61,041 nt of DNA, from assembly GCA_017402445.1 (NCBI GenBank), contig JAFPME010000001.1, positions 1 to 61,041 of the forward strand, written 5' to 3'. The translations under genes were made by a program, and so were the position numbers. The stretch comes from Prevotella sp. Its GTDB lineage: Bacteria; Bacteroidota; Bacteroidia; Bacteroidales; Bacteroidaceae. Shown here in pieces: positions 1,171 to 43,053 of the stretch. Every line of letters begins with the position of its first letter. The stretch's first letter is position 1. Below the pieces are notes generated by a model. The model had not been told where the DNA came from, ran no database searches, and saw nothing but the letters and a program-made list of their open reading frames with translations.

Positions 1171-1244
1171 TGGACCAGCCAGGGCTTGAACCTGGGACCT
1201 CCAGATTATGAGTCTGTTGCTCTAACCAACTGAGCTACAAGTCC
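1171..1244 (-). tRNA. tRNA with CAT anticodon (Met elongator or Ile2)
   Basis: Read on the minus strand: acceptor GGACTTG pairing with CTGGTCC (one mismatch), D-arm TAGCTCAGTTGGTTAGAGCA, anticodon loop CTCATAA, and a T-arm with GGTTCAAGCC. The discriminator is A and CCA is not encoded. CAT serves both elongator Met and lysidine-modified Ile2, and I cannot separate the two by eye. Confidence 0.9.
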
Positions 1245-6989: not shown

Positions 6990-7204
6990 ACGGACGATGC
7001 AGCGAAAGCCGGTGGAAAAACTGAGCTGACGACCCATGCGCCGTAGTCGGGTTTCACATCGTCAAGCAAATGCATGTAGCGGCAGCCTGATTCCACTAAA
7101 AGCATTGCCGAACCGCCAGCGCACTCCTCCATCATAGGATGCCGTCACCGGGTGACAGGGCCTGTTGCCGCTGACGACAAGCGATGGAAACAGTTCTGAA
7201 TTCT

Positions 7205-7554
7205 TTTGACAAAAAGTCCGAAAAAGTGCTCTGAGATTCGATTATTCTGAAATAAAAATCCTGCGGCCGCAAATGCGCGAATTTTGAGAGTTTTCTAAAA
7301 CATTGGAAACAAAGCACTTGTATTTTCTTTACATTTTTGGCGCTTGCAAAATGGCCCATTTTACACTTCAAAACGGCCCATTTTACTTTCCCAAATGAAT
7401 CATTTTGCCGAGCAGAATGGCCCATTTTGCGATGTAAAATGAGCCATTTTGAAAATGAAGAAAAATTTTTCTCGATTTTTGTCCGGTTCTTTTACCAAAA
7501 CAACGGCTTTCGTCTTCCTAGAATGAAAAAATAAGTCGACAGGATTTTTTGGTA
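7205..7554 (+). repeat. interspersed 22-bp-unit element, copy A
   Basis: About 350 bp, related to 14115-14467 and 40474-40845 (inverted). Order: GACAAAAAGTCCG at 7208; an AAATAAAAATC block; a TTCTAAAAC-TTGGAAACA block; CTTTACATTTTT; then five units starting at 7347, 7369, 7391, 7413 and 7435, an exact 22-base period. The unit core is CAAAAYGGCCCATTTTG plus about five variable bases. The tail ends in AGGATTTTTTGGTAA (7541-7554). No credible protein is encoded. Confidence 0.85.
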
Positions 7555-7675
7555 AAAAATGTTTATAAAGCATGGGGTTCCGGTTGCGGTAATACCGCAA
7601 CACACTGGACTGGAGGAAGTGCTTCGTGCAGGTTGAATCAGACTCTCACCCTCGGGTGAGCAAGAAGGGGGCCGG
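7555..7675 (+). repeat. structured module joined to copy A, repeated at the window end
   Basis: Directly follows the GGTAA end of copy A. It contains TTTATAAAGCATG, a hairpin GTTGCGGTAATACCGCAAC, CTGGACTGGAGGAAGTGC, TTCGTGCAGG and a palindrome CTCACCCTCGGGTGAG (7644-7659). It is nearly the same as the reverse complement of 60908-61022. Copies B and C lack it. Confidence 0.85.
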
Positions 7676-13873: not shown

Positions 13874-14114
13874 AGGTTTGTCGTTTTTGAGTTTAACAAA
13901 TTAAAAATCGCTACAAATATAGTGAAAACAATTTAAATCTGCAAGTAAAAACGAGAAAATAATTCGCACAAGCATTGTTTCCTATGGTTTCCGAATGTAG
14001 AGACGACTTTCGGTTCCTTTCCTCGGCTGCCGGCGGTCAGCATTCCGGCAACGGCGGTGTGTCATGCCGGCTGCCGTGCACCGCGGCTCATGGCCGGAAA
14101 ACACTTCTGAAAAG

Positions 14115-14467
14115 AACGGACAAAAAGTTCGTTTTTGGCTTCCGTGAGTGCCATCGTTTCAAAATAAAAATCAGACGGACGCGTACGCGCGAATTATGAG
14201 AGGGTTCTAAAACGCTGGAAACAAACGACTTGTACTTTCTTTACATTTTTCGCGCTTTCAAAATGAGTCATTCTGCACATGAAAATGGCCCATTCTGTCG
14301 CGCAGAATGAGCCATTTTGACGAGCAAAACGAGCCATTTTGCGATGCAAAACGGCCCGTTTTGAAAAAACAGATGATTTTTTTTGTTGGAATGTTTGGAT
14401 TTTTTACCGTTTCAGAACCTTTCAGCCTTCTAAAACGGTCGAAAATTCTTGCAGGATTTTTTGGTAA
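14115..14467 (+). repeat. interspersed 22-bp-unit element, copy B
   Basis: Same order of blocks as copy A: GACAAAAAGTTCG, then TTTTTGGCTTCCGTGAGTGC shared with copy C, GACGGACGCGTACGCGCGAA, TTCTAAAACGCTGGAAACA and CTTTACATTTTT. Five units start at 14259, 14281, 14303, 14325 and 14347 (exact 22-base period). The end is GCAGGATTTTTTGGTAA. The rest of the 13874-14553 gap shows no gene. Confidence 0.85.
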
Positions 14468-14553
14468 TTTTTCTTGAAGAAATAGGACTGCGTGTCACGC
14501 GGAAACACAGGGGGCCGTCGGCGGAAGAAGTGTGAAGCGCGGTCGGAACGGAG

Positions 14554-18201: not shown

Positions 18202-18218
18202 GCTGATGGTTGTTTTTT

Positions 18219-18287
18219 TCTAGATTTTCTAGATTCTCTAGATTTTCTAGACTTTCTAGATATTCTAGATTTTCTAGATATTCTAGA
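18219..18287. repeat. 9-bp tandem array, 8 TCTAGA units
   Basis: TCTAGA starts at 18219, 18228, 18237, 18246, 18255, 18264, 18273 and 18282, an exact 9-base period, with AT-rich triplets between. It fills the space between the DUF5703 gene stop (18297) and the GH78 start (18201). Confidence 0.95.
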
Positions 18288-20594: not shown

Positions 20595-20617
20595 GATTGG
20601 GAGGATTGGTTTTTTTT

Positions 20618-20677
20618 TCTAGATTCTCTAGATTTTCTAGATATTCTAGACTTTCTAGATATTCTAGACTTTCTAGA
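20618..20677. repeat. 9-bp tandem array, 7 TCTAGA units
   Basis: TCTAGA starts at 20618, 20627, 20636, 20645, 20654, 20663 and 20672 (exact 9-base period). It lies between the acetylesterase stop (20702) and the DUF5703 gene start (20594), ending about 24 bases from the start codon. Confidence 0.95.
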
Positions 20678-20701
20678 TTATTTACTATTCGGATGATGGG
20701 G

Positions 20702-40256: not shown

Positions 40257-40473
40257 GCTTTTCTGTTCTTTTGTCTTTCTGTTTTCTGTTAGAATGACGC
40301 ACGATGTGTTCTTCTGTAACGCGTTCGCAACAAAAGAATAGCTGCACTGGCGTTTTTTTCTTCGCTCGCCTCGGCAAAAGAAAGCCTGCCGAAGCGAACG
40401 GCTGTTTGTTTCTCTGCTTCTGCTTGTCGATGGGGTTTCAAGGTTGAAACCGCGTCGTTTCCGTAAAATAAAA

Positions 40474-40845
40474 TTACCAAAAAATCCTGCACAATTTTTT
40501 GATCGTTTTAGAAGTCCGGATGCTCTTGAAACGGTAAAAAGTTCAAACAAAATCGCACTCTCGTCTTCCCTGTTTTTCAGAATGAGCCGTTTTACTTCGC
40601 AAAATGGCTCGTTTTGCTCGTCAAAATGAATCATTCTGCCCGACAAAATGGCCCGTTTTGAAACGCAAAATGAGCCGTTTTGAAAACCTGTTTTTTGTAA
40701 AGAAATAACAACTTGCATGTTTCCAGTGTTTTAGAAAGCCCTCATATTTCGCGCGTACGCGTCCGTCTGATTTTAATTTTGAAACGATGGCACTCACGGA
40801 AGCCAAAAACGAGATTTTTGTCAGCTTTTTTCAGATTTTAGGCCG
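40474..40845 (-). repeat. interspersed 22-bp-unit element, copy C (inverted)
   Basis: Same blocks as copies A and B, read on the minus strand: GACAAAAATCTCG, TTTTTGGCTTCCGTGAGTGC, GACGGACGCGTACGCGCGAA, TTCTAAAACACTGGAAACA, five units (on the plus strand starting 40578, 40600, 40622, 40644 and 40666, exact 22-base period), a TTTTTACCGTTTCA block, and GCAGGATTTTTTGGTAA at the end. It fills most of the gap between the divergent pectin genes; 40257-40473 and 40846-41115 show no gene. Confidence 0.85.
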
Positions 40846-42930: not shown

Positions 42931-42939
42931 GTTATTTTT

Positions 42940-43053
42940 GTCTGTTTTCTGTCTGCTCTTTGTCTGTTTTCTGTCTGCTTTTTGTCTGTCTTTCGTCTGC
43001 TCTTTGTCTGTACTCAGTCTGTTTTTGTCTGTTTTCTGTCTGTTCTTTGTCAG
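42940..43053. repeat. 11-bp tandem array, about 11 GTCTG units
   Basis: GTCTG starts at 42940, 42951, 42962, 42973, 42984, 42995, 43006, 43017, 43027 and 43038, then GTCAG at 43049: an 11-base period with one 10-base step. T-rich hexamers such as TTTTCT and CTCTTT separate the units. It lies between convergent gene ends. Confidence 0.95.

Follow-up and report, generated by a model that had tools for sequence, protein, structure and literature searches.

Interspersed arrays of 22-bp palindromic units in Prevotella genomes, a candidate chromosomal docking platform

Introduction

What is the noncoding segment with five evenly spaced palindromes that recurs three times in 61,041 nucleotides of Prevotella DNA? 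The stretch analyzed here, called the window, comprises positions 1 to 61,041 (forward strand) of contig JAFPME010000001.1, from a Prevotella sp. assembly (GCA_017402445.1) that is a 1.87-Mb draft, 50.7% complete (the source genome, G000). Dispersed extragenic repeats are common, but we would not have predicted the set of properties united in this one: a constant number of units, very few indels between copies of 71% identity, one period common to arrays of different sequence in part of the genus, and mutual avoidance. It offers a test case for separating a selfish element with immunity from a host chromosome marker.

Three copies of one element in the window

A preliminary description had grouped three noncoding segments of the window as one element, each with five units at exact 22-bp spacing. 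Our profile search recovered all three as full copies of about 370 bp: copy 1 at positions 7196 to 7564 of the forward strand (320.6 bits, also supported by alignment), copy 2 at 14107 to 14477 of the same strand (372.0 bits), and copy 3, inverted, at 40465 to 40834 of the reverse strand (343.0 bits). The same contig thus carries copies on both strands. The profile had been built from copies including these three; independently of it, the segment from 14105 to 14480, used as a query, matched positions 40470 to 40835 with an E value of 1.6e-88. Weight-matrix array calls placed the five 22-bp palindromic units at 7345 to 7454 and 14257 to 14366 (forward strand) and at 40576 to 40685 (reverse strand), and their spacing is exactly 22 bp in all three copies.

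Copy number, unit number, and length constraint

We then looked into the source genome with copy 2 as the query. Among 87 candidates, 40 places gave a score, which bears out the expectation of a genome-wide family. All 39 full-length copies found in the contigs and loci examined of this half-complete genome contain five units, and the profile match is 367 to 371 bp long in 37 of them (364 and 372 bp in the other two). The full element is also present in Prevotella sp. UBA2756 (G264), where 27 of 30 copies have five units and the remaining three have 6, 6, and 3; a genome scan gave 17 matching stretches, all from UBA2756, the source genome having possibly been excluded from that scan. The fixed number of units stood for the source genome (39/39) and loosened beyond it, to 27/30 in UBA2756; arrays of further species have 2 to 5 units, in most cases 4 or 5. 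The source genome and UBA2756 share an element family, to which simpler arrays in other Prevotella species are related.

Alignment of 31 copies from the source genome with their consensus counted 2312 substitutions and 5 indel events, at a mean pairwise identity of 71% (differences of ∼29%) and with 89% identity for the closest pair. The 29 aligned UBA2756 copies showed 1775 substitutions and 49 gap events, a count that includes ragged ends. Length rather than sequence is constrained in the element. Even the end block GCAGGATTTTTTGGTAA, described beforehand as almost invariant, proved just moderately conserved over the 31 copies. As had been noted, the element has no open reading frame: when a frame may be interrupted by stops in no more than 2 of the 69 copies, none exceeds 31 codons, and coding potential was rejected on this basis. 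Stem-like covariation was also missing from the source and UBA2756 copies: the 300 column pairs with the strongest coupling have a mean Watson-Crick excess near zero, and no more than two isolated stacked pairs turned up in either set. An Rfam search of the window matched a tRNA gene (1171 to 1244, reverse strand) as its sole hit. We read the many substitutions and few indels, together with the lack of an open reading frame and of covariation, as a constraint on DNA spacing and not on RNA or protein.

Organization of the units and of the array

The array spans 110 bp, and its five 22-bp units, as read from the weight-matrix arrays, are written TGCRAAAYGGSCCRTTTYGCAN. Each unit has a dyad at its center and a weaker second dyad 11 bp off; the conserved dyad bases include the central G and C pairs and a flanking C..G, and the whole array matches its own reverse complement in the profile search. 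A/T tracts alternate every 11 bp across the array (AAAA-7-TTTT-7), which makes the dyads of all units face the same side of the helix. Curvature prediction gives a bend for the array (z of -2.8 against Markov shuffles, below zero in 31/31 copies) and for the right flank (z of -1.9) but not for the left one. The ends of the element read either TGAAAA../..TTGACA or ACGCCAGTTCGG.

The proposal that the palindromic halves are generally kept matched did not hold. A clear excess of matched pairs was found in the source genome at the innermost pair alone (68% versus 51%, reached in 0/500 shuffles), and we attribute it to the middle unit, which is usually distinct in this genome (GAATGAWTCATTC, judged by eye from the alignment). 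Weak excesses appeared in the source genome for k=5 of the second dyad (9/500 shuffles) and for k=6 (42/500), in G058 for k=8 (14/500), and in G324 for k=5 of the second dyad (24/500), the remaining pairs showing none. Strong sites were rare outside arrays: G058 had 2 scoring above 12 in ∼196 kb, and G324 had 6 in 349 kb; G234 had 8 strong sites outside arrays and the source genome 16, at least 10 of which belong to two unmasked arrays. By eye, nothing recurred around these strong sites, and they yielded no candidate for a binding protein. The array, not the single site, is the unit.

Distribution in the genus and beyond

A 363-base consensus, for which no more than 7 candidates were scored in each genome, retrieved the full element from 0/99 relatives and short matches from 4/99, which by eye are three 22-bp arrays and one coding stretch. 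A two-unit motif matched in 41 of 299 genomes of the genus, the source genome being counted, with up to 591 matches in one of them. The backward pattern, meant as a control, showed an enrichment of its own in further genomes of the genus (up to 492 matches), because the second dyad of the arrays has this form; it is not a true negative control. The arrays examined in G010, G017, and G124 have a 22-bp period with the other form of the dyad. By hand count, at least four forward matches occur in 20 genomes, at least four backward matches in 37, and either in 53/299, a figure resting on motif matches, with arrays inspected in few of those genomes. These simpler arrays keep the 22-bp period, usually with 4 or 5 palindromes, and their sequence is specific to the lineage; G124, for instance, has seven arrays of four units each. 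Most genomes of the genus have few or no matches with either motif, so Prevotella as a whole can do without whatever function the arrays may have.

In 294 genomes from the rest of the order, neither the forward nor the control pattern matched more than once per genome. One copy used as a query found no match in 72,556 plasmid records, and a search of viral contigs found no exact three-unit array of the source type, a search that would miss mismatched arrays or other sequence types.

We also observed by eye that many arrays in G058, G234, and G124 (for example, L033, L043, and L274 to L278) are adjoined by a second dyad resembling CnnTGATnATCAnnnnGTTAC, and that some arrays of these genomes have a TGTAAA motif on the opposite flank.

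Gene context and spacing along the chromosomes

Using an ORF-based gene caller, we could place 61 of 65 arrays between called genes, and all 61 were intergenic, in tandem, convergent, and divergent gaps alike. In the tandem gaps of G324 and most of those of G058, the array lies nearer the end of the upstream gene, as judged by eye. The search for a cognate regulator among 274 flanking proteins showed that a few families recur across species (e.g., one of 4 proteins in three genomes), and the recurrent families in the top clusters looked, by eye, like common enzymes and sensor kinases, with no transposase and no candidate binding protein among them.

Evaluation of the spacing compared arrays of at least 3 units with length-weighted random intergenic placement. 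This cutoff, picked after a first spacing analysis, removes 1 of 23 arrays in the source genome, 2 of 23 in G058, 1 of 42 in G324, and 4 of 36 in G234. The smallest gap between arrays exceeded the random expectation in all four genomes: 6.9 kb in the source genome (P = 0.002), 3.1 kb in G058 (P = 0.0024), 2.7 kb in G324 (0/5000 random placements), and 7.6 kb in G234 (P = 0.0014). For G234, avoidance hinges on omitting the 2-unit calls, as the smallest gaps with them are 308 and 1315 bp and are not unusual; a separate weight-matrix call assigned three units to the array at 308 bp.

Spacing was also more even than random in the source genome (coefficient of variation [CV] 0.57, P = 0.011) and in G058 (CV 0.42, P = 0.002), as well as in G324 from 115 kb on (CV 0.38, 0/5000), a cut made after seeing the data. 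Evenness was absent from G234 (CV 0.98, P = 0.51 to 0.65) and from the whole G324 contig (CV 1.69). Among single contigs of the source genome, C27 had a CV of 0.19 when a 2-unit remnant was counted, and evenness on C29 was not significant (P = 0.11 to 0.13). The first 115 kb of the G324 contig hold one array, have a G+C content of 0.494 versus 0.606, and contain by eye an integrase-like gene as well as core-like genes. In G234, contig C2 has a skew with no clear origin or terminus, and its array-free region from 230 to 410 kb includes, by eye, some conjugation- and restriction-like genes. Mean spacing varies by species, at about 6, 9, 20, and 32 kb.

Shared sites and traces of movement

Comparison of the neighborhoods of the copies in the source genome and in UBA2756 identified one cleanly shared site, C27:93509 and L240, where both neighboring genes and the orientation are the same. 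The two copies are 77% identical with two 1-base gaps and are reciprocal best matches among 39 × 30 copies; the flanking genes are 64 to 71% identical at fourfold sites. At a second candidate site, C29:133751 and L242, one neighbor matches, at the same distance of 39 bp and in the same orientation. Between L242 and G000:C29:133712-134336, the neighboring protein is more than 99% identical (96% for the fourfold sites of its gene); the two elements start out almost identical for ∼75 bp, and identity then drops abruptly inside the element. Such a pattern resembles a junction left in the repeat by recombination after a recent transfer and leaves the status of the shared site ambiguous. Across seven candidate neighbor pairs, two ranked first among the source copies and the other five ranked 5th to 35th of 39, and two of these pairs have the element in opposite orientations with respect to the gene they share. 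Positions differ at the remaining loci compared: the right-hand neighbor of C29:110069 is present in UBA2756 with no element within 12 kb; no clean empty site was found.

Copies are more alike within a species (identity of 0.70 and 0.75) than between the two species (0.66), and one UBA2756 copy, L236, is 86 to 92% identical to six source copies. One source copy of the subfamily to which L236 belongs, at C27:66008-66572, is 565 bp long and has 12-bp inverted repeats of the ACGCCAGTTCGG type at its two ends. This end sequence occurs at 14 places in the source genome and 1 in UBA2756, 6 of the 15 lying within about 130 bp of an element copy, and a scripted search for paired ends gave four pairs, three of which enclose no element. 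The inverted ends of the main family are weak, as judged by eye. Target-site duplications gave no signal, with no excess flank match over 65 copies in windows of 3 to 10 bp, although old copies could have lost it. The recently shared subfamily with inverted ends suggests that the element has also moved. In these comparisons the family shows long residence at no fewer than one site, exchange between copies, and some recent movement.

L021, L023, L025, L029, and L236 form a subfamily marked by a different left end, which reads GCTGAATTATGCTTACAAAATAACA.. or nearly so.

Comparison with known repeats and chromosomal sites

The family had been presented as matching no described one, and our survey agrees: literature on Prevotella repeats and on nucleoid and palindromic topics in Bacteroidetes, surveyed by title and abstract and covering few subscription papers, held no description of it and gave BrickBuilt alone as a near relative in kind, Rfam adding the tRNA. 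According to excerpts of its descriptions, BrickBuilt is a miniature inverted-repeat transposable element (MITE) of Porphyromonas gingivalis with 23-nt units in 1 to 22.8 copies, 19 elements per genome, inverted ends CCGAAAGGTCTC, and a repeat number that changes between strains (PMC4596501, PMC5771137). The same excerpts show a likeness in being intergenic and multicopy, with tandem repeats between conserved left and right segments, no open reading frame, and drift between copies. They also show the differences, since the Prevotella element, in another genus, has palindromic units, five per full copy in the source genome, that step by exactly 22 bp instead of 23. Its unit number is nearly constant where that of BrickBuilt is highly variable, and by eye neither TGAAAA../..TTGACA nor ACGCCAGTTCGG resembles the BrickBuilt ends.

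Repetitive extragenic palindromes (REP/BIME) with RAYT are described in an extract as high-copy extragenic palindromes, regularly spaced in composite repeats (PMC2817692), and the arrays resemble them in these respects; they differ in having no association with Y1, a single exact 22-bp period, and a near-fixed number of units. Helically phased A/T tracts and predicted curvature are shared with phased A-tract curved DNA, as far as an extract describes it (PMC3940949), but the Prevotella element is discrete, interspersed, and endowed with sequence-specific dyads.

Sites of SlmA and Noc are dispersed along chromosomes, and matS, the site of MatP, is palindromic. According to an extract, matS is as long as the AAAYGNNNCRTTT core, 13 bp, and occurs in 23 copies in the 800-kb Ter domain (PMC3330122). 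The Prevotella sites are likewise dispersed, but they come as arrays and their binder is a putative one.

Possible roles of the element

The preliminary description had left a choice between a non-autonomous element and a chromosome-organizing site, and both remain live: the element has no open reading frame, and its palindromic sites are found chromosome-wide. Its other pair of options, a bound dimer or a structured RNA, has shifted toward the dimer, as stem covariation is lacking and unit-level pairing is mostly at the level of shuffles. Our tentative preference, with a probability of roughly 0.4, is that the element is a chromosome-resident docking platform for the cooperative binding of a candidate dimeric protein, perhaps one that sets chromosome domains. 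A dimer would bind each unit and cooperate with its neighbors over two helical turns, and the bound arrays might bridge one another or limit the diffusion of supercoils, acting as dispersed architecture sites comparable to matS or to the SlmA and Noc sites but with several sites each. Copies may first have spread like a MITE, later been kept at fixed sites, and converged within species through recombination with one another. Dyads on one helix face, the fixed number of units, the length constraint, the use of arrays instead of single sites, and mutual avoidance all fit such cooperative binding. We also count in its favor the scarcity of indels, the even spacing in three genomes, the shared site at C27:93509, the lack of covariation, the curvature, the intergenic placement of 61/61 arrays, the absence from plasmids, and the lack of an exact array in viral contigs; against it stand the uneven spacing in G234 and the whole G324 contig, the dependence of avoidance in G234 on omitting 2-unit calls, the varied mean spacing, the patchy distribution, the mobile subfamily, and the fact that one clean shared site was found.

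The strongest rival of the platform is a MITE-like non-autonomous element whose array binds a transposase acting in trans, whose spacing comes from target immunity, and whose length-fixed copies are the movable ones. We consider it possible, if doubtful. The element is multicopy without an open reading frame, as MITEs are, and a MITE with target immunity would account for the mutual avoidance, the patchy, lineage-specific distribution in the genus, and the mobile 565-bp subfamily with its inverted ends, close to elements at 6/15 places; the high identity of L236 to six source copies and the higher identity within than between species point the same way. It leaves unexplained the missing target duplications and the cleanly shared site, and it sits poorly with a closest source pair at just 89% identity, plasmid and viral searches free of matches, recurrent flanking families without a transposase, weak inverted ends in the main family, and scripted end pairs that in 3/4 cases hold no element. 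The alternating A/T tracts and the predicted bending of array and right flank would also suit a topology site acting by DNA shape, in which the DNA, through its phased A-tracts and central dyad, wraps a topoisomerase or a nucleoid protein such as HU and no sequence-specific dimer is involved. Gyrase wraps roughly the ∼100 bp of an array, and close spacing is avoided; the conserved dyad bases nonetheless go beyond what curvature needs, the dyad sequences are lineage-specific, and the left flank is uncurved, which makes this reading unlikely.

Two further readings were rejected and strike us as very improbable. Palindromes of the REP/BIME type, spread by a Y1 (RAYT) transposase, would match the many extragenic, lineage-specific, and patchily distributed palindromes per genome in some species, but the Y1 domain family PF01797 shows no association with array-rich genomes: it is found in 3/10 of these versus 3/8 array-poor ones and is absent from G264, G058, G324, G275, G124, G017, and G225, some of which are incomplete. 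Equally remote is a structured or regulatory RNA, a 3′ untranslated region or terminator element, for which the palindromic units could form hairpins and the tandem-gap arrays of G324 and most of those of G058 lie on the fitting side by eye; divergent gaps are occupied too, and the near-zero Watson-Crick excess, the unit-level pairing test, and the Rfam result speak against it.

To return to the docking platform, its boldest extension is that spaced nucleoprotein arrays of ∼100 bp, each with about 4 or 5 palindromes two helical turns apart, serve as chromosome marks in certain Prevotella lineages and partition domains, the architecture being kept while the sequence code is replaced in each lineage. 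We hold this to be rather unlikely as it stands; if true, it would imply a new, fast-evolving chromosome-architecture protein in bacteria. The 110-bp array could serve as bait for a DNA-binding protein in this important gut genus.

Other repeats in the window

The window holds other short tandem repeats; a generic palindrome scan was too noisy for use. A separate 22-bp repeat, TTTGTCTGTTTTCTGTCTGCTC, occupies positions 42937 to 43051 in 5.3 copies; a period of 11 bp describes it as well. The 9-bp unit TTTTCTAGA forms two tandem arrays, of 8.0 and 7.2 copies, which lie ∼2.4 kb apart at 18216 to 18287 and 20615 to 20679.
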